Source: Comamonas resistens
GTDB lineage: Bacteria; Pseudomonadota; Gammaproteobacteria; Burkholderiales; Burkholderiaceae_C
DNA length: 10,050 bases
Direction of reading: 5' to 3'
Assembly: GCF_030064165.1 (NCBI RefSeq)
Contig: NZ_CP125948.1
Span: 1 to 10,050 of the forward strand
Numbering within the stretch: position 1 is the stretch's first letter; the number at the start of each line of letters is the position of its first letter. Below the pieces are notes generated by a model. That model searched no databases. It was not told where the DNA came from and saw only the letters and a list, made by a program, of their open reading frames with translations. The position numbers were made by a program, and so were the translations under genes. This document shows, in pieces, positions 3,141 to 8,630 of the stretch.

Positions 3141-3216
3141 TTGGCAAATTTTGAGGCCATCAGCGCATCACGACGCGCTTTCCATTCAGCCCGTTTTTCG
3201 GGACTTGTGTTGGCTC
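3138..3216 (-). pseudogene. Short upstream frame overlapping the 78-aa gene, probably a gene remnant
   Basis: Read on the minus strand, the frame ending in the ATGA overlap encodes the hydrophilic stretch SPEKRAEWKARRDALMASK, which has a natural amino-acid composition. It has no ATG at its left end, and an in-frame TGA stands only about 25 codons before its stop. The only internal ATG would give a 7-residue peptide. It may be the 3' end of a broken small gene that once translated into the 78-aa gene. Confidence 0.3.
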
Positions 3217-3315
3217 AACCTGAAGGGGTGTCCATTATGTCCACAGCCATATCAAGCATGGTCTTCGTGCGGGCCGCTTCCAGCAGTCACTAGTGCGCAG
3301 CTGCACCTTGTAGCG
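3210..3315. repeat. Diverged repeat, copy B (partner at 1295-1400)
   Basis: Aligned to copy A without gaps over 57 bp (10 mismatches) with flanking similarity. A third, weaker relic shares CGCTTCCAGCAGTC (3277-3290 here, 3907-3920 there) and GCTGCACC at the same distance downstream. Copies A and B bracket kfrA and the 78-aa gene in the same orientation. Confidence 0.6.
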
Positions 3316-3345
3316 ACGTACATGAGCCCGCCCCTCCAGGAGAAA

Positions 3346-3431
3346 AATTGCTTATGTTTTGCTGATCTTTTGCTTATGTTTTGCTGATACGTGAACCCGT
3401 TTGCTTATGTTTTGCTTATGTTTTGCTTATG
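3346..3431 (+). repeat. 11-bp tandem repeats, family 1 (TTTTGCTTATG), 7 units
   Basis: Four 11-bp units fill 3346-3389 and alternate between TTGCTTATG and TTTTGCTGAT forms. A 9-bp gap follows, then three nearly identical TTTTGCTTATG units at 3399-3431. The period equals about one helical turn, as in iterons or centromere repeats bound by a protein. No initiator or partition gene adjoins it, so the ligand is unknown. Confidence 0.85.
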
Positions 3432-3636
3432 CGGTCAGGCGACTAGACGCTGTAGGCATCTCTCCTGCTGCAACCTCTTTGAGTGGAACATAAAGCATGT
3501 GCTCCAGAGTAGGTCATTTTTCATCACTTTTCCCTTTGAAATCAGGGATCTAAGGTGTGGCACATGTTGGCTCAACTGTGCTCCATTTCGAGCACATGCA
3601 TGTTGATGCTTTCTTAGACAGTCAGGTGCAGTACAT
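3432..3636. other. Spacer between the two 11-bp repeat sets
   Basis: No gene is supported. A hairpin with a 7-bp stem, TGTGCTC (3577-3583) and GAGCACA (3590-3596), lies in a stretch where GCACATG or its complement recurs (around 3497, 3560 and 3592). It has the look of an intervening part of a structured locus. Confidence 0.4.
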
Positions 3637-3845
3637 CTGCTTTAGACCTGCTTTAGATTTGCTTTAGAGCTGCTTTAGAGCTGCTTTAGAGCTGCAGTGG
3701 GAGTGCAGTGGGAGTGCAGTGGGAGTGCAGTGGGAGTGCAGTGAGGGTGCAGTGAGGGTGCAGTGAGGGTGCAGTGAGGGTGCAGTGGGAGTGCAGTGGG
3801 AGTGCAGTGGGAGTGCAGTGGGAGTGCAGTGAGGGTGCAGTGGAG
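3637..3845 (+). repeat. 11-bp tandem repeats, families 2 and 3, 19 units in one phase
   Basis: Nineteen 11-bp units follow without a break (209 bp). Units 1-5 are CTGCTTTAGAN (3637-3691). Unit 6 (CTGCAGTGGGA) joins the start of family 2 to the rest of family 3. Then come three GTGCAGTGGGA, four GTGCAGTGAGG, four GTGCAGTGGGA, one GTGCAGTGAGG and one GTGCAGTGGAG. The 4+4+4 pattern suggests expansion by 44-bp blocks. Because 11 is not a multiple of 3, the translated frames read as Thr/His/Leu/Cys-rich repeats and are not genes. A protein-binding array (centromere or iteron set) or a slippage-prone minisatellite are the main options. Confidence 0.9.
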
Positions 3846-3979
3846 CTTAGGTAAATACAGGGTCGTCTGGGTACGCTTCCCAAGCATCAACCATGTTCCC
3901 TTGACCCGCTTCCAGCAGTCTGGGATGCCGCGCTGCACCGCACCCCGCTGCGCGGCAAGAAAAAGCACACCGGGTTGTA
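3846..3979. other. Non-coding stretch with a third diverged repeat relic
   Basis: It contains CGCTTCCAGCAGTC (3907-3920), shared with copy B at 3277-3290, and the same downstream GCTGCACC. A GC-rich palindrome lies at about 3945-3956 (CCGCTGCGCGGC). A minus-strand frame through it is open but has no start or ribosome-binding site I trust. Confidence 0.35.
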
Positions 3980-4008
3980 AGTAACGATAACTTTCTATTA
4001 TGGTGAGT
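3980..4008 (+). other. Candidate Xer (dif/cer-like) recombination site 1
   Basis: Two arms, AGTAACGATAA (3980-3990) and TTATGGTGAGT (3998-4008), flank a 7-bp core CTTTCTA. The right arm resembles the XerD-binding half of ColE1 cer (TTATGGTAAAT, from memory), and the left arm ends in the typical ATAA. The second site at 7813-7841 has the same right arm with the core reversed. The 7-bp core is unusual, since 6 or 8 is normal. Confidence 0.4.
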
Positions 4009-4010
4009 AG

Positions 4011-4038
4011 CAAAAAGCTCCTTAAAAGGCGCTTTTTT
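4011..4038. terminator. Bidirectional terminator-like stem, copy 1
   Basis: AAAAAGC-T-CCTT and AAGG-C-GCTTTTT form a stem with one mismatch and a tiny loop, with A- and T-runs on the two sides. It stands just past the antitoxin stop codon, and its identical twin at 7844-7871 would end the complete antitoxin operon. Confidence 0.6.
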
Positions 4039-4049
4039 GAATGTTCGAT

Positions 4050-4118
4050 CTAGACCGCTGCGAGGCGAGAAACCGTGTCGGGATACTTCTCCACCAGCCG
4101 GATCAGCAAGGCAGCTTG
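4050..4118 (-). pseudogene. Truncated 3' end of a HigA-2-like antitoxin gene
   Basis: The last 22 codons and stop of the antitoxin encoded at 7883-8197 (ending KYPDTVSRLAAV), identical at the DNA level. It is cut off at 4118/4119 by the left terminal repeat of the IS remnant. It lacks the helix-turn-helix and is non-functional. Confidence 0.85.
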
Positions 4119-4389
4119 TGTATTGACCCAGCGGTTTTTGCACAGGTCAGGCCGCTAATGCAAATGCTTGAGCGGGCGTTTTCATCTTCAGCGCCTGGTG
4201 GGGACGCTGATGGTTATAGAAGCTGATCCAGTCGCTGATGACACGGCTGGCATGCTGCAAGCTCTCGAAGCGGTGGCGGTGCACACATTTGCGCTTGGCT
4301 GTCCAGCGTTTAACTTCTTCTTGATCTTTCATCTATCAGGTCCTTTCTTCAAGTTTAGGACCTGTGCAGCTTTTTACTGGGTCAATACA
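4119..4389 (-). mobile_element. 271-bp internally deleted IS3-family element (MITE-like)
   Basis: It is bounded by 13-bp perfect terminal inverted repeats, TGTATTGACCCAG (4119-4131) and its complement (4377-4389). TGCACAGGTC matches again a little further in on both sides. Inside is one minus-strand frame made of the first residues of OrfA joined to the end of OrfB, so most of both genes is missing. The flanking bases (gcttg left, cgagg right) show no target-site duplication, so the outer sequences were changed by recombination or deletion after insertion. Full-length relatives elsewhere could supply transposase in trans. Confidence 0.85.
4147..4332 (-). pseudogene. IS3-family OrfA start fused to OrfB C-terminus
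   Basis: A 61-residue frame. Residues 1-15 (MKDQEEVKRWTAKRK) match the start of IS3-family OrfA. From about residue 16 it is the C-terminal end of the OrfB integrase core, with the hallmark ISDWISFYNHQRPHQALK (32-49) and PAQAF. The fusion is in frame, so a small protein could be made, but it lacks the OrfA helix-turn-helix and the first two catalytic acidic residues of the DDE triad, so it cannot be a transposase. The ATG has AGGA about 9 nt upstream, inherited from orfA. Confidence 0.85.
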
Positions 4390-4897
4390 CGAGGCGCTAC
4401 GGGAAAGCATCGTCAATATCGGTCGCAACGCACGTACGGTCAACGAGAGCGCTGCTGCAGGGGCTAGGGAGGCCGTAGAGCGTTCGATGCTGGGCGTAGC
4501 TGATCGAGCCTCAGAAACCTCGCGTAAGGCAGCAGAGCCACTGATTAAGCGTATGAGTGAGGTCACAGATGCCGCGTTTAAGGCCAGTGATGATCTTCAC
4601 GCTGGTGCAAACGCTATAGGTGGGCGCATGGTGCTTTATGCCGCAATGGGCGCTGTGGGCTTGATGGTTTCAGCAGCTGCTATTGGCTACGGCATTGGTG
4701 CCTGGACTGAAAGTGAAGTCGTGGAGCTACGCCTGGAGAGAGCAGCACTGCAAGCATCTGTTGCGGATTTTGAGAGAAGGGCAGGCCGTGCGCAGCTCAG
4801 TAGCTGTGACAAGCGACTGTGCGTGCGTATTGTTCCAGACAAAACTAACTACGGCGTACCGGGAAAAGAGGTGTACGCCATTATTCATGGATACTAG
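4364..4897 (+). CDS. 5'-truncated gene for a membrane protein, possibly plasmid-mobilisation associated
   Basis: The open frame runs through the right end of the IS remnant; native sequence begins at about 4390 (residue 10 from the GTG at 4364), so the true start has been lost. AGGA before that GTG could allow expression of a fused product. After the junction come an amphipathic helical region (about 15-75, GRNARTVNESAAAGAREA and following), one TM segment (about 90-112, LYAAMGAVGLMVSAAAIGYG), a short coiled coil (about 117-142), and a C-terminal part with SSCDKRLCVRI and a final IIHGY. This layout reminds me of accessory membrane proteins encoded near MOB relaxases, but no relaxase is present and the assignment is weak. 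It converges on the AT-rich operon with an 8-bp gap. Confidence 0.55.
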   Translation: MQLFTGSIHEALRESIVNIGRNARTVNESAAAGAREAVERSMLGVADRASETSRKAAEPLIKRMSEVTDAAFKASDDLHAGANAIGGRMVLYAAMGAVGLMVSAAAIGYGIGAWTESEVVELRLERAALQASVADFERRAGRAQLSSCDKRLCVRIVPDKTNYGVPGKEVYAIIHGY

Positions 4898-4905
4898 ATT
4901 TTTTA

Positions 4906-5526
4906 TTAGTCATCCAACTCTATTTCATCATCAAATGATTCTTCACTATTTTGGAAGCTAACTGAAATTATCCCTGTATTTTCTGGCTCTGCAAGATATA
5001 TACCTTCTTTATTAAGAAACTCATTAATATATGATGAATTTATTTTTTTTATATATTTGTCGTAATTCTCAGAGAAGTTTTTATTGAAATTTTGTTTGTC
5101 AATAATTATTGATGCTGAGGATTGAGCCGCAATGTTGTTTTCATGTGCAAAATTCATAAAATCATAACAAATTATTGATTTAAACAGATCCGAGATATCT
5201 TTTTCAGAATAGCCAAAATCTTTAAGCCTAGTTTTGTATATTCCTAATACTTCATTTTTCTTATTATTGTCAAGAGGTGATATTGAATTAATTATTTTTT
5301 CTATGTCATCGCTTTTGAAAAGCGCGTCGAATTTATCATAAATAGATTTTCTATGGACATGGACACAAAAACAGATGAAGGCTGTTAAAGCAATTGTCGG
5401 CCATGTGAATTCTATAAGCAAATATATATAGAATCCAATTATGGCTAATCCTAGAATAAAAGTTAATAAACTTTTAGCATAGGCTGCTATTATTAGCAGA
5501 AAAATTATACCAACTATAAAGCCCAT
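4906..5526 (-). CDS. Membrane protein of the AAA+ operon (206 aa), acidic C-terminal tail
   Basis: Last gene of the leftward operon. It has three probable N-terminal TM helices (about 2-16, 19-38 and 42-56) and a basic HVHRK edge. A cytoplasmic domain of about 145 residues follows, mostly helical and rich in Lys, Asn, Asp and Ser (motifs DIEKIIN 74-80 and GYSEKDISDLFKSIICYDFM 105-124). It ends in an acidic tail, SEESFDDEIELDD (194-206), that resembles the end of the 117-aa protein. It starts 1 nt after the stop of the 123-aa gene (TAAAATG) and has no Shine-Dalgarno sequence, so it should be translationally coupled. I do not recognise the family. By location it is a membrane partner or substrate of the AAA+ ATPase. 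Confidence 0.75.
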   Translation of the reverse strand: MGFIVGIIFLLIIAAYAKSLLTFILGLAIIGFYIYLLIEFTWPTIALTAFICFCVHVHRKSIYDKFDALFKSDDIEKIINSISPLDNNKKNEVLGIYKTRLKDFGYSEKDISDLFKSIICYDFMNFAHENNIAAQSSASIIIDKQNFNKNFSENYDKYIKKINSSYINEFLNKEGIYLAEPENTGIISVSFQNSEESFDDEIELDD

Positions 5527-5527
5527 T

Positions 5528-5899
5528 TTATTTGTTGTACTCGAATTTAATTATCTTTTCTGTTTTTATTCTATCGGTCGAATATTCATCTAAGTGATGA
5601 ATGTAATAGCTTGGTCTGCCTGATAAATTCTCCTTTAATAATTCTCCGTTCTTGTTTTTGAAATATAATTCTCCGACAAACCTGAATTCATTATCATTTA
5701 TGTACTCAACACCAACTTCTCCTGCAATAAATGATATTTCTTTGTCTTTCTCAGACTTTTCGACGAACTTGTCTAGTTTTTCAGATAAAGAACTCATATA
5801 ATCTTCTAAAGAAGACTGAGAGCTCTTTAGAATTAAATTATTTGCTTCCTCTGCTGCTGTAAAAATATCTTTTAAATTTAATGGCAATTCTTTTTTCAT
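5528..5899 (-). CDS. Small soluble protein of the AAA+ operon (123 aa)
   Basis: Third gene of the operon. Residues 8-52 are predicted helical and charged (NLKDIFTAAEEANNLILKSS, then LEDYMSSLSEKLDKFVEKSE), suited to coiled-coil contact. Residues 55-121 alternate hydrophobic and polar residues as in a small beta sheet (VGVEYINDNEFRFVGELYF). There is no TM segment or signal peptide. The ATG follows three tandem copies of a 5-bp unit and lacks a clear Shine-Dalgarno sequence, again suggesting coupling. Family unknown; it could be an adaptor between the ATPase and the membrane proteins. Confidence 0.75.
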   Translation of the reverse strand: MKKELPLNLKDIFTAAEEANNLILKSSQSSLEDYMSSLSEKLDKFVEKSEKDKEISFIAGEVGVEYINDNEFRFVGELYFKNKNGELLKENLSGRPSYYIHHLDEYSTDRIKTEKIIKFEYNK

Positions 5900-5918
5900 A
5901 ATTAGCTTAGCTTAGCTT
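5900..5918 (-). repeat. 5-bp tandem repeat (TAAGC) between two operon genes
   Basis: On the minus strand CTAAGCTAAGCTAAGCTAA links the 117-aa and 123-aa genes. The stop codon of the first gene lies in the first unit. Gain or loss of a unit would leave the protein unchanged but alter the spacing to the next ATG by 5 nt. Confidence 0.7.
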
Positions 5919-6265
5919 AGTTCAAGTTCCAGTTCGTCAGAGATATCTACTTGATTTCCTTGGCTTTTTTCAAGTTTTTTGCGAATTTTTTCAGGAAGCT
6001 GGTCTACTGTTATAGTTTTTGTTGTTACTGTTTCCTGCCATTGGCCTTGATCGTTTTTTGAGTAAAACTTATAAGCTGCCTTTATTCCTTCTCTCCAATC
6101 AAGACCTGATTTGATATAGGCAGTAAATCCAACAATTGCCGCTTTAACTACTTCCTTAACCTTCTGAACTGCTTTAGATAAGTAAAGTTTTATCTTATCC
6201 CAGAATGTTATGGCTATTGCTGCTGCACCAATAGCTAGACCTGCAATTAAAAGTAGAGGTATCAT
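5912..6265 (-). CDS. Small single-TM protein of the AAA+ operon (117 aa), acidic C-terminal tail
   Basis: Second gene of the operon. Residues 2-21 form one very hydrophobic N-terminal TM helix. A long Lys-rich amphipathic helix follows (23-52, DKIKLYLSKAVQKVKEVVKA), then a probable beta segment with FYSKNDQGQWQETVTTKTI (67-85). Next comes a charged PEKIRKKLEK helix. The end is acidic, VDISDELELELS (106-117). Few basic residues flank the TM on its N side, which suggests the bulk stays in the cytoplasm where the ATPase acts. AGGA 7 nt before the ATG is a good ribosome-binding site and overlaps the end of the ATPase gene (8-bp gap). Family unknown. Confidence 0.75.
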   Translation of the reverse strand: MIPLLLIAGLAIGAAAIAITFWDKIKLYLSKAVQKVKEVVKAAIVGFTAYIKSGLDWREGIKAAYKFYSKNDQGQWQETVTTKTITVDQLPEKIRKKLEKSQGNQVDISDELELELS

Positions 6266-6273
6266 TTATTTTC

Positions 6274-7185
6274 CTATTTAATAATCTGCGAAGCTTCTTC
6301 TTTGCTTAAAATCCGTGTAAAAGTTTCTGCGTTTGATAAATTTGCATTTTTGCTTTGCTTTATCTTTGATATTTCTGTAATGATAATGTCATTATTTATG
6401 GAGAAAGATTTACTCTCAACTGCTGAATATGCAGCTAATAGTGTGCTCTTTTTTATATCTGCGGGACTCATTCCTTCTGATTCAGCAGAAAGAGTTGAGA
6501 GTTCTATGCTTGAATGATATTTCTTCGGTATATATCGTTCGAACAATTTATGTCTAGCTTCTGAATCTGGTAGATCTATGTGAATATGTCTATTTATTCT
6601 TCTCATAAAGGCTGGATCGTAGTTGCTAACAAAGTTTGTTGCAAATATTAGATAGCCTTTGAAATCATTTAATATATTCAGCAAAACAGAACGTGTTTGA
6701 TTTACACTAGTATCAGTGGAGCTACTCATATTGGTAACTCTTTTGCTAAGCATTGCATCTGCTTCATCAAAAAATATTATGCAGTCGTCTGAATTTGATG
6801 CAAAGTCGAAAACTTTTTTTAGATTCTTTGGTGTTTCTCCAACATATTTACTCTCTATTTCAGAGTAATCCACTGATAATATTTTTTTTCCAAGTTTATT
6901 GGCTATTGCATGTGCAATAGATGTTTTTCCTGTTCCAGGAGGACCGTACAGATTTAATATAAAAGAGTCAGATAAGTCATGAGTCTCTTTGAAGCACATA
7001 TCCTCTGCAATAAATTTTAGGTTTTTTTGTAAATTTATTAGAGAGTTTATGTCATCTAACGAGTTTTTGCTTATTATTAATTCTGAAAAATTGAATTTTG
7101 GATCGGTTAAATGAAACTCTGGAGATTTTGATTTGTTTTTAGACTGATCTTCAGTTTTTTTTTCTATTTCTGAACCGATTGGCAT
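6274..7185 (-). CDS. AAA+ ATPase (classic AAA clade) heading a four-gene operon
   Basis: A 303-residue protein with one full AAA module. It shows Walker A GPPGTGKT (81-88), a pore-loop motif KYVGE (114-118 region) of the substrate-threading AAA group, Walker B IIFFDEAD (136-143) and sensor 1 ATN (182-184). It has a second region of homology with DPAFMRRINR (190-199; R195/R196 as arginine fingers) and a sensor-2-side GMSPADIKK (238-246). The first 45 residues are charged and disordered-looking, without a known recognition domain, so the substrate cannot be named. All catalytic residues are present. Such ATPases form hexamers that unfold or remodel proteins. Both membrane proteins downstream have acidic tails that could be recognised by it. 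The ATG has no strong Shine-Dalgarno sequence. Base composition is far more AT-rich than the backbone, a sign of transfer. Confidence 0.9.
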   Translation of the reverse strand: MPIGSEIEKKTEDQSKNKSKSPEFHLTDPKFNFSELIISKNSLDDINSLINLQKNLKFIAEDMCFKETHDLSDSFILNLYGPPGTGKTSIAHAIANKLGKKILSVDYSEIESKYVGETPKNLKKVFDFASNSDDCIIFFDEADAMLSKRVTNMSSSTDTSVNQTRSVLLNILNDFKGYLIFATNFVSNYDPAFMRRINRHIHIDLPDSEARHKLFERYIPKKYHSSIELSTLSAESEGMSPADIKKSTLLAAYSAVESKSFSINNDIIITEISKIKQSKNANLSNAETFTRILSKEEASQIIK

Positions 7186-7340
7186 GATGGATGATGTGAC
7201 GGTTATTTTTTGACTCTTCTTTGTAACACAAAAAACAAATCATTTTTTTGCATTTAAATTTAGCTTGTTATTACTTTTATTAATAAAGAGGTTTTAATTT
7301 TCTACGCCATTGCAACTGAATTTATGTGCTCCGATGTTCT
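7186..7340 (-). promoter_or_regulatory. AT-rich leader/promoter region of the AAA+ operon
   Basis: About 155 bp of AT-rich DNA upstream of the ATPase gene. It includes the perfect 12-bp palindrome TTTATTAATAAA (7276-7287), a possible operator, and long A/T runs. I see no convincing pair of -35/-10 boxes. The region ends where GC-rich backbone DNA (the toxin remnant) resumes, so it also holds the right edge of the inserted cassette. Confidence 0.4.
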
Positions 7341-7439
7341 GTGAAAAAAATACTAATGAACTTCATAGATACCGATAAATCGACTCAGCAACGCGACATA
7401 GAAAAAGCTCAAGCCATGGTGCAAGAGCTGAAAGGGTGA
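7341..7439 (+). pseudogene. 3' remnant of a HigB/RelE-type toxin gene
   Basis: The frame ends in DKSTQQRDIEKAQAMVQELK. This matches the C-terminal signature of HigB-type killer proteins (typically GGDKSTQ..DI..A), followed 4 nt later by its antitoxin gene. The first two thirds of the toxin, including the catalytic region, are absent and replaced by the AT-rich cassette. The GTG at 7341 and ATG at 7356 could only give a peptide of about 30 residues. The true junction is probably near 7360, where similarity to the toxin begins. Confidence 0.75.
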
Positions 7440-7443
7440 AGAG

Positions 7444-7764
7444 ATGAACTCTGCTGCTTTTGAAAAATTTGGCATCAAGGCCTTCGACGCTGCCGATTAC
7501 TTGCAATCTGATGAAGATTGCGCCGCATACCTTCAAGCCTGTCTGGAACAAGAACCGGGCAACGCTGCACTATTCACCAAAGCACTGGGAGACATTGCCC
7601 GTGCACGCGGGATGATGCAGCTTGCAAAAGACACTGGACTCACTCGCGAAGGGCTCTACAAGTCACTGAACGAGCAAGGCAACCCAAGCTTTTCAACCGT
7701 CATGAAAGTGATGAACGCCCTTGGACTGCAAATGAACATCGGCCCTCAGTTGTCAGCTGGATGA
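7444..7764 (+). CDS. higA: HigA-type antitoxin, orphaned from its toxin
   Basis: A 106-residue addiction-module antidote of the type paired with HigB-like killers. The C-terminal half holds the Cro/XRE-like helix-turn-helix: LAKDTGLTREGLYKSLNEQG (about 60-79), then NPSFSTVMKVMNALGLQM. In the intact pair it would bind the toxin and repress the operon. Here the toxin is truncated, so the protein may be a relic, a free repressor, or an anti-addiction factor against a related module in the host. It follows the toxin remnant by 4 nt and ends in a very strong terminator at 7778-7813. Length is normal for the family. Confidence 0.85.
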   Translation: MNSAAFEKFGIKAFDAADYLQSDEDCAAYLQACLEQEPGNAALFTKALGDIARARGMMQLAKDTGLTREGLYKSLNEQGNPSFSTVMKVMNALGLQMNIGPQLSAG

Positions 7765-7777
7765 AGTGAGTTCAAGT

Positions 7778-7813
7778 CAACAAAAAAGGCGCTTTGAAGC
7801 GCCTTTTTTGTTG
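7778..7813. terminator. Strong bidirectional terminator after higA
   Basis: A 17-bp perfect stem with a 2-nt loop; its core is AAAAAAGGCGCTT / AAGCGCCTTTTTT. The A- and T-runs make it work in both directions. It abuts the left arm of the Xer-like site 2. Confidence 0.9.
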
Positions 7814-7841
7814 CCAGAGATAATAGAAAGTTATGGTGAGT
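7813..7841 (+). other. Candidate Xer (dif/cer-like) recombination site 2
   Basis: GCCAGAGATAA (7813-7823), core TAGAAAG, TTATGGTGAGT (7831-7841). The right arm and its flank equal those of site 1; the left arm keeps only GATAA. The core is the exact reverse complement of site 1's CTTTCTA. It sits exactly between the terminators of two toxin-antitoxin modules, the position pdif sites take in modular plasmids. Confidence 0.4.
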
Positions 7842-7951
7842 AGCAAAAAGCTCCTTAAAAGGCGCTTTTTTGAATGTTCGATCTAGACCGCTGCGAGGCG
7901 AGAAACCGTGTCGGGATACTTCTCCACCAGCCGGATCAGCAAGGCAGCTTG
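7831..7951 (+). repeat. 121-bp perfect direct repeat, copy 2
   Basis: Identical to 3998-4118. Here the antitoxin gene continues intact beyond the repeat, so this is the parental context and copy 1 the truncated duplicate. Confidence 0.95.
7844..7871. terminator. Terminator of the minus-strand toxin-antitoxin operon
   Basis: Same imperfect stem with flanking A/T runs as at 4011-4038, located 12 bp past the antitoxin stop codon. Confidence 0.65.
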
Positions 7952-8197
7952 CGCATTCGGCGCAGCCCTGCCTTGCTCCCAATTCTCCAAGGTTCGGGTT
8001 TTTGTCCTCAGGTAGCTGGCGAAGACGGGCCTAGAAAGATTCAAACGTTCCCGAATCGACTTGAGTTCGGCAGAGGTGATGGTGACTTCAGGCTTCAGCT
8101 CCACCTCGTGGGTTCGCAGCGTGCGCTTTCCTGCACGTGCACTCGCTAGTGCATCAAAGCCTTCGCTGAGTTCTGCAAAGAGATCACGCTTGGTCAT
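7883..8197 (-). CDS. higA: HigA-2-like (NadS-type) XRE antitoxin
   Basis: A 104-residue antitoxin. The N-terminus (1-35, MTKRDLFAELSEGFDALASA and following) is the toxin-wrapping and self-regulating segment typical of HigA-2. TITSAELKSIRERLNLSRPV to TLENWEQG (about 39-75) is the XRE helix-turn-helix. It ends in a helix with KYPDTVSRLAAV. Start: GGAGG lies 7 nt before this ATG, and the ATGA overlap with the toxin stop (8194-8197) shows the usual toxin-then-antitoxin order. A longer frame upstream lies inside the toxin gene and is rejected as start. The protein should neutralise the toxin and repress the shared promoter. Confidence 0.9.
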   Translation of the reverse strand: MTKRDLFAELSEGFDALASARAGKRTLRTHEVELKPEVTITSAELKSIRERLNLSRPVFASYLRTKTRTLENWEQGRAAPNAQAALLIRLVEKYPDTVSRLAAV

Positions 8198-8532
8198 TTT
8201 CTGGCCTCCAATTCGGTTTTCAAAAGCTGCTTCAGGATCGCTTTCTGCTTTGGTGTCAGGTTCTCTAACTCGTCCTTGTCGTACAGAGTGAAGAGCCAAA
8301 ACTGCGGACCACCGCTCCACCAGTAGTAGATGACCCGTAACCCGCCGCGAGTTCCTTTGCCTCTGCGTGGATCACCATGGCGCACCTTGCGCAGCCCGCC
8401 GGTGCCTTCGATCATGTCGCCCGCTTCAGGGTTCTTGAGCAAGCGCTCTTGGAACTCCTTGAACTCGTCATCGTTGAGGTAGGTGGCTCTGTTTCGCTCG
8501 AAGGCAGGCAATTCAACGAAGACGGCTTTCAT
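8194..8532 (-). CDS. higB: HigB-2-like RelE-superfamily mRNA interferase toxin
   Basis: A 112-residue toxin resembling HigB-2 of Vibrio cholerae: MKAVFVELPAF start, GDMIEGTGGLRKVRHG (about 38-53), GTRGGLRVIYYWW (about 59-71), FTLYDKDELENLTPKQK (about 79-95). Toxins of this family cleave mRNA on the ribosome. The basic GLRKVR and GLRVIYY segments are conserved and present, so it looks active. The ATG at 8532 is preferred to an ATG 54 bp upstream because it gives the family's N-terminus and leaves the operator palindrome (8544-8558) outside the gene. There is no clear Shine-Dalgarno sequence; a TACAAT box lies so close to the ATG that the mRNA may be nearly leaderless. Confidence 0.9.
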   Translation of the reverse strand: MKAVFVELPAFERNRATYLNDDEFKEFQERLLKNPEAGDMIEGTGGLRKVRHGDPRRGKGTRGGLRVIYYWWSGGPQFWLFTLYDKDELENLTPKQKAILKQLLKTELEARK

Positions 8533-8543
8533 TTGGATTATTG

Positions 8544-8558
8544 TACGCAAGTTGCGTA
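8544..8558. promoter_or_regulatory. Operator palindrome of the higBA-like operon
   Basis: TACGCAAgTTGCGTA is a perfect 7-1-7 inverted repeat directly upstream of the toxin start. It overlaps the candidate -10 box (TACAAT on the minus strand). It is the expected binding site for the antitoxin's helix-turn-helix. Confidence 0.65.
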
Positions 8559-8559
8559 T

Positions 8560-8630
8560 CTTTTGAGGAGAAAGGCACCGAACCATTTTTTGAGCGCCTG
8601 CTAAAATTTGCGATACATGTATCTCAAAAG
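8560..8630. promoter_or_regulatory. Divergent promoter region between two toxin-antitoxin operons
   Basis: CTTTTGAG (8560-8567) and CTCAAAAG (8623-8630) form an 8-bp inverted pair around the region. GATACATGTATC (8612-8623) is a perfect palindrome just before the RHH antitoxin gene, with TAAAAT (8602-8607) as a candidate -10. The palindrome is the likely RHH operator. GTATC precedes both arms. Confidence 0.5.

Follow-up and report, generated by a model that had tools for sequence, protein, structure and literature searches.

What does a compact cassette of four genes, encoding an AAA+ ATPase and three further proteins, do on a small plasmid of Comamonas resistens? The DNA, analysed here by computation (the window), is a complete Comamonas plasmid contig of 10,050 base pairs (bp; contig C2 of the source genome), and the four genes, A, B, C and D, follow each other on one strand with gaps of 8, 12 and 1 bp. 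The original prediction, made from the letters of the sequence, described an AT-rich, compact operon, and this layout is confirmed: the guanine-plus-cytosine (GC) content is 0.319 from A to C against 0.538 in the flanks of the window, and 0.27-0.34 in 500-bp windows within the cassette. The cassette consists of a three-gene core, A-B-C, which recurs in other genomes, and a variable slot, occupied here by D. We hypothesize that the core forms an AAA+ unfoldase (segregase) module tethered to the membrane, which would work through adaptors on an exchangeable membrane client, a reading to which we give about an even chance. The argument draws on the following features:

6274..7185, minus strand: A, single-domain AAA+ ATPase, 303 residues (Pfam AAA, 2.6e-33)
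6922..6945, minus strand: Walker A of A, residues 81-88, GPPGTGKT (sequence and conserved columns)
6838..6849, minus strand: pore loop 1 of A, residues 113-116, KYVG, with little or no variation among 35 sequences
6757..6780, minus strand: Walker B of A, residues 136-143, IIFFDEAD (conserved columns)
6277..6339, minus strand: C-terminal tail of A with a tag-like motif; R291 and S294 invariant in a set of nine
5912..6265, minus strand: B, 117 residues, predicted N-terminal transmembrane (TM) helix, then helix, three strands and helix (model)
5969..6025, minus strand: segment of B, TTKTITVDQLPEKIRKKLE, resembling A-type tails (alignment)
5528..5899, minus strand: C, 123 residues, predicted soluble, domain as in B (model and profile comparison)
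4906..5526, minus strand: D, membrane protein of 206 residues, hydrophobic N-terminal part, presumably cytosolic C-terminal part
4909..4926, minus strand: C-terminal tail of D, EIELDD, invariant in six rows, one of them the window's own cluster

The ATPase and its two small partners

The classical AAA clade is recognized by Walker A and Walker B motifs, sensor 1, arginine fingers and an aromatic residue in the pore loop, and the role of pore loop 1 is known from AAA unfoldases. All of these features are found in A, judged by its Pfam match and by conserved columns. Besides the stretches that we take to be the Walker motifs and the pore loop, A contains what we take to be sensor 1 and two arginines, and the motifs are kept in its relatives. 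Hydropathy, from which all TM counts in this study derive, gives no membrane segment in A, and no protease or peptidase domain is present among the best 25 of its 40 Pfam matches. As the original prediction had proposed, A appears to be a complete threading-type AAA motor; it would have neither a membrane anchor nor a protease of its own. Its best solved relatives in a profile search of the PDB (best 60 of 245) are p97/Cdc48, Afg2 and the proteasomal (26S) ATPases; p97/Cdc48 and the proteasomal ATPases provide the closest AAA domains and have the threading-type pore loop in common with A. The A family comprises 3,169 proteins at E ≤ 1e-40, the window's own cluster counted.

Hydropathy predicts one membrane segment in B, two in D and none in C, in agreement with the two membrane proteins and the small soluble protein of the original prediction. 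Neither B nor C gave a family above the cut-off in Pfam or NCBIfam, and B, C and D matched no PADLOC model even at E ≤ 1 (PADLOC-DB 2.0.0, 2023). Relatives were found for all four cassette proteins, which are real protein families: the B family has 38 proteins and the D family five, all of them close relatives (both at E ≤ 1e-3, own cluster included), and C-type proteins were found by profile beside A in other loci.

The AlphaFold model of C (mean predicted local distance difference test, pLDDT, 85.5) consists of two helices, three strands, a helix and a strand, and that of B (mean pLDDT 75.6; predicted template modelling score, pTM, 0.48) of a TM helix, a helix, three strands and a helix. Profile comparison of the C and B families gave a probability of 92.3% with a pairwise E of 5.4e-7. 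From this match and the models, B and C appear to be the membrane-anchored and the soluble version, respectively, of one small helix-three-strand-helix domain. The shared domain had no convincing match in the PDB, which does not establish a new fold.

Recurrence of the core and the content of the fourth slot

Alignment of 35 A proteins against 84,980 species genomes matched 512 stretches, of which 473 were confirmed and the best 80 studied as loci (individual loci are given numbers preceded by L). By record title, 62 of the 80 belong to Selenomonadales, many of them metagenome-assembled genomes (MAGs) from the rumen, so that sampling is uneven, and the labels of MAGs may be mistaken; the open reading frames (ORFs) of unannotated loci come from a simple ORF caller. 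Seventy-five loci with at least 900 bp downstream of A were usable, five others lying too near a contig end.

B-type and C-type genes occur together in the chain after A in 56 of the 75 usable loci and are both missing in 19, while one type alone was found in none. After dereplication of A at 80% identity, both are present in 30 of 34 loci. The window fits the same definition, with genes of both types after A. Of the 59 loci with B/C-type genes, 50 have one immediately next to A, with a median gap of 3 bp, and 16 of these 50 genes overlap A by 4 bp. Besides the window, the core turns up on a second plasmid and on genome contigs whose labels span several phyla; the records bear the names Pseudomonas, Haemophilus, Moraxella, Selenomonadaceae, Ruminococcus, Treponema and Paenibacillus. 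In the plasmid of Moraxella osloensis, annotated genes match A (412 bits), B (74 to 102) and C (58), and a 232-residue protein comes next. The GC content from A to C lies below that of the flanks in 44 of 50 measured loci, with a mean difference of 3.8 points. Four Selenomonadales loci (L012, L013, L016 and L018) carry tandem arrays of five to six B/C-type genes after a single A gene.

An AT-rich insertion could have gathered an ATPase and unrelated small genes as chance neighbours, and the AT-rich island with its repeat scars would suit this explanation. Recurrence of the set across these records refutes it for A-B-C, and we regard it as extremely improbable overall, although D may be such a neighbour. 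The conservation of a four-gene set that the original prediction anticipated was thus borne out for A, B and C, which recur on another plasmid and in several phyla, and not for D, which has close relatives only. Because 19 of the 75 loci are without B and C, and because D is not conserved, the set breaks down into a core of three genes and one variable slot.

A membrane protein often follows the core elsewhere, as in Pseudomonas, Alistipes, Ruminococcus, Treponema, Selenomonas and Anaerovibrio. The window's D matched none of 12 such D-position membrane proteins at E ≤ 1e-3, and a Pfam scan of ten D-position proteins gave none at the curated cut-off. The 12 include four pairs of similar proteins (L031/L063, L050/L058, L075/L084 and L015/L017). 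The last pair (L015, 2823-4010; L017, 9022-10356; 24% identity) has a cysteine-rich, zinc-ribbon-like C-terminal part and a PPPG tail in common. In Selenomonadaceae the slot may hold a CxxCxxCC protein (Pfam PF03692) or a TM protein with an NTF2-like tail, a name that reflects our reading of a sequence with no Pfam match; the CxxCxxCC protein was found by profile in 15 loci, not always adjoining B/C. A Haemophilus locus (L009) adds a DUF4230 protein and a Paenibacillus locus (L053) a DUF1232 protein.

In the D family, the residues just ahead of EIELDD differ between rows despite the invariant tail. Among D-slot proteins with two or more predicted TM segments (multi-TM), a strict tail pattern (hydrophobic-x-hydrophobic-acid) ends 6 of 13, compared with 9 of 99 multi-TM background ORFs; with a looser pattern the figures are 6 of 13 and 16 of 99.

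The shared tail motif and a candidate mechanism

A proteins accompanied by B/C usually end in a tail such as EKRVVSEEYVKEQ. B proteins hold a similar stretch, TTRxIxESEVPxxIRxK, and the A-tail profile also matches B-type proteins of other loci. Thirty-nine tails, selected by a pattern and including a few doubtful ones, gave a score matrix with which the remaining ORFs of the loci were searched. At a score of at least 16 this matrix retrieved 12 non-A proteins, all within operons (10 of 133 other operon proteins, one B and one B/C), and none of 994 background ORFs; at 14 it retrieved 16 operon proteins and again no background. Tail length also goes with the partners: A tails of at least 17 residues occur in 47 loci with B/C and 4 without, shorter ones in 8 with and 15 without (p = 6e-7; 6 of the 80 loci excluded). 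A physical link of A, B and C is likely, given that gene order is conserved, that a motif is shared and that B and C occur jointly.

On a contig from a viral collection (L090) that holds a distant A relative, a gene pair (6644-7837 and 9894-10994) carries KITTERIM near the end of this relative and KITTEKVL near the start of a TM protein, which looks like a lineage-specific version of the shared motif.

In the mechanism that we propose, a hexamer of A would be kept at the inner membrane via B and C, which would act as adaptors reading short tails. A would thread the cytosolic tail of a membrane client, here D with its tail EIELDD, leading to extraction, opening or disassembly of the client. The combination of membrane tether, threading motor and tails is what points to a segregase. 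The client slot may be exchangeable, accommodating multi-TM proteins and perhaps dynamin-like GTPases; whether D is the client of A-B-C is, in our judgement, evenly balanced. Less certain is the idea that the module serves as an accessory device for stress or defence, its membrane client being activated or cleared through handling driven by ATP.

Several observations weigh against a segregase module that recognizes tails. Lower cut-offs of the matrix admit background, with 18 operon proteins against 2 background ORFs at a score of 12, 26 against 3 at 10 and 36 against 11 at 8, and the independent cases come down to about five because several matches are from close relatives (L012, L013, L016 and L018). 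The association of tail length with B/C weakens upon dereplication: at 80% identity, long tails are found in 28 loci with and 1 without B/C, short tails in 1 and 3 (p = 0.003), and at 70% the counts are 17 and 0 against 1 and 1 (p = 0.11). The association is real in the sample and rests largely on one Selenomonadaceae group of similar orphan A proteins. Eight short-tailed A proteins have B/C, and four long-tailed ones do not (L080, which misfits the tail rule, is among them). The tail pattern of D was written after looking at the sequences, and among all 38 D-slot proteins only 7 match its strict form and 9 its loose form. Since only 13 of the 38 are multi-TM, the client could be elsewhere. 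The original prediction had treated ATPase homologues without the partners as counter-evidence, and such homologues do occur in part: besides the 19 of 75 loci, none of seven distant A relatives (L005, L006, L007, L090, and L116-L118 with ~3.6 kb of sequence apiece) has a detectable B or C. Other small TM proteins lie nearby in L006, L007 and L090.

Adaptor-based recruitment, as in p97/Cdc48, is the working model for A-B-C too. In contrast to p97/Cdc48, A has one AAA domain and no N domain, its adaptor-like proteins are of unassigned fold, and the setting is a bacterial membrane. Msp1/ATAD1 is a single AAA motor that extracts membrane proteins, according to excerpts of PMC7018516 and PMC9273213; A resembles it in being a single AAA motor and may resemble it in action. 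Msp1 itself is membrane-anchored (excerpt of PMC12793716). We did not assign A to the Msp1/ATAD1 group, in which the anchor is part of the ATPase, as hydropathy gives no membrane segment in A; its anchor would be B. FtsH carries an M41 peptidase domain, and A, with 303 residues and no peptidase family among the best 25 of its 40 Pfam matches, was not placed with FtsH either.

Plasmid setting, neighbouring genes and possible uses

The two ends of the window are contiguous in three Comamonas records that have backbone stretches in common with it (NZ_CP063060.1, NZ_CP101748.1 and NZ_CP043574.1), and the window is therefore most likely one circular plasmid. The cassette lies on the minus strand inside an arc (~3215-8598) without a megablast match in NZ_CP063060.1, which has mobilisation and other genes in its place. 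Cassette DNA was absent from a megablast of 72,556 plasmid records, among which records of very near genomes may be left out. The B profile matched 1 of 399 genomes of the window's order and 1 of 369 of its class, both times the window's own, and strong A matches occur in 4 of the 399; accordingly, the cassette is an accessory acquisition within this order and class. It lies between the copies of a direct repeat (98% identical):

3998..4124, no strand: direct repeat, first copy, 127 bp
7831..7957, no strand: direct repeat, second copy, overlapping the 3' end of a helix-turn-helix (HTH) gene

Next to the cassette lie a RelE-like/HTH pair (7883-8586; neither match reaches the Pfam cut-offs) and an antidote gene (7444-7764; Pfam 2.8e-30), and together with the repeat they bear out the toxin-antitoxin-rich, recombination-scarred region of the original prediction. 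The antidote gene is of HI1420 type (region 7353-7764); only a short open piece precedes it, and on our reading its usual partner may therefore be truncated.

Such surroundings on a 10-kb plasmid would be compatible with a plasmid-stability cassette, in which D is a toxic membrane protein restrained by A-B-C and loss of the plasmid kills or slows the cell. However, D itself is not fixed, the D slot holds proteins other than multi-TM ones in 25 of 38 cases, and relatives on genome contigs of 100 kb to 2.7 Mb mean that the set is not confined to small plasmids. We consider this explanation improbable.

Elsewhere in the window, a remnant at 4147-4332 resembles the C-terminal end of an IS3-type transposase (a reading of the ORF translation). 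Phased arrays of 11-bp direct repeats, of the types TTTGCTTATGT, TGCTTTAGAGC and TGCAGTGGGAG, at 3336-3444 and 3627-3875, lie downstream of a KfrA-like gene and are perhaps a partition or replication site. About 250 bp at 1480-1730 match many, mostly enterobacterial, plasmids at 99% identity or more; this applies to 1,801 of the 1,920 matching records, and the matches listed fall at 1480-1730. This segment, mostly unannotated among the matches listed, looks like a transposon or insertion sequence (IS) remnant. The accessory arc of the related Comamonas plasmid NZ_CP101748.1 (L120) has two adjoining genes annotated as GTPases (3699-5365).

Dynamin-like GTPases were found in 9 of the 80 loci, a raw count by similarity to three seeds, non-exhaustive, that corresponds to about four independent groups. 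In L041 a dynamin-like protein is encoded by the next gene upstream of A (Dynamin_N, 5.9e-15) and has relatives in L029 and L021; in L019/L020 a C-type domain is fused to a GTPase; and the B/C arrays of L012, L016 and L018 end with long GTPases, identified in L018 by scan (GTPase plus zinc ribbon) and in L012 and L016 by similarity. In Pseudomonas sp. 10-1B (L008), a LeoB-type protein is encoded ~5 kb upstream of A on the other strand. These neighbours and the Cdc48-type motor argue for a role in membrane-protein quality control or remodelling, in which the module would extract or remodel membrane proteins under envelope stress, with dynamin-like GTPases where present; the GTPases also fit the membrane-remodelling option of the original prediction. 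Weighing against this role, the window's cassette has no GTPase or protease, and GTPases occur in few loci. We offer it tentatively. A likeness to LeoABC lies in the LeoB-type protein of Pseudomonas sp. 10-1B and in the dynamin-like proteins that adjoin A in three rumen loci; unlike LeoABC, the window's cassette is without a dynamin, and the association is occasional. In two Paenibacillus loci and in Planktothrix, genes for HerA-type DUF87 proteins lie downstream of A.

Alternatively, A-B-C may be an anti-phage (abortive) system: on sensing infection it would set D free or activate it, and D, as an effector acting on the membrane, would depolarize or permeabilize the infected cell. The sporadic accessory distribution, the variable D slot, the plasmid carriage and the presence of A at the end of a prophage record (Moraxella phage Mcat5, L114) are consistent with this idea. 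At three places (L010, L088/L089 and L114) a WYL regulator is encoded upstream of A and on the strand of A, and regulators of the WYL type have been reported beside defence systems, according to excerpts of PMC9122601 and PMC9122588.

On the other side, five Selenomonadales genomes chosen for their loci contain A two to three times each (13 matches, of which two have internal stops), and several loci adjoin housekeeping genes, as read from translations and Pfam families. Neighbour scans covered 83 of 118 listed ORFs from 15 loci, D-slot proteins included. PADLOC matched the 83 proteins with 70 families at 1e-8, and each of the 25 listed was found in one to three proteins; the matches traced to a locus are LeoB (L008) and a GajB-like helicase (L010) only. 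The defence-island setting raised by the original prediction was not seen as a general feature in these 15 loci. In PADLOC the best match of A is IetA (8.5e-41), which may reflect general AAA similarity; IetA also leads the NCBIfam matches of A.

We tentatively suggest that defence could be one use of the module, and envelope maintenance about equally so; the two are compatible with the segregase mechanism and with each other. A stress or phage-defence use is plausible in view of the plasmid and prophage carriage and of the WYL regulators. The most far-reaching version, which we think unlikely as a whole, is a plasmid- and prophage-spread immune system with swapped effectors, built on a Cdc48-like segregase held at the membrane by an adaptor domain, with a tag common to its partners and multi-TM proteins, dynamin-like GTPases and HerA-type ATPases as interchangeable clients.

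Further known systems were tried as assignments and rejected. The partner of IetA in IetAS, IetS, is a subtilisin-type peptidase; A scored 123.7 bits against a curated IetA cut-off of 510, and no peptidase match was found in B, C, D or the four flanking window ORFs scanned. CBASS with TRIP13 includes a HORMA protein and a nucleotide cyclase as partners; the match of A to TRIP13 models is weak (2.7e-15), and B, C and D match no PADLOC model. MoxR-vWA systems pair a MoxR ATPase with a vWA partner, and DO-GTPase conflict systems have GTPases with GAP1, as stated in excerpts of PMC7159879; no vWA or GTPase family was found in B, C or D, nor among the best 25 of the 40 Pfam matches of A.

What stands of the original prediction is a compact accessory system of a threading-type ATPase and membrane partners, and no description, name or known function was found for the set. 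If the defence reading is true, the cassette would represent a group whose B, C and D are unmatched in PADLOC-DB 2.0.0 (2023) at E ≤ 1. Bacterial ATPases that pull proteins from membranes are known mainly as proteases such as FtsH. If the segregase reading is true, A-B-C would be a bacterial counterpart of Cdc48 or Msp1 that works without a protease, brings an adaptor domain of its own and takes an exchangeable membrane client; the tag in common would be a direct handle that makes the model testable in one strain.

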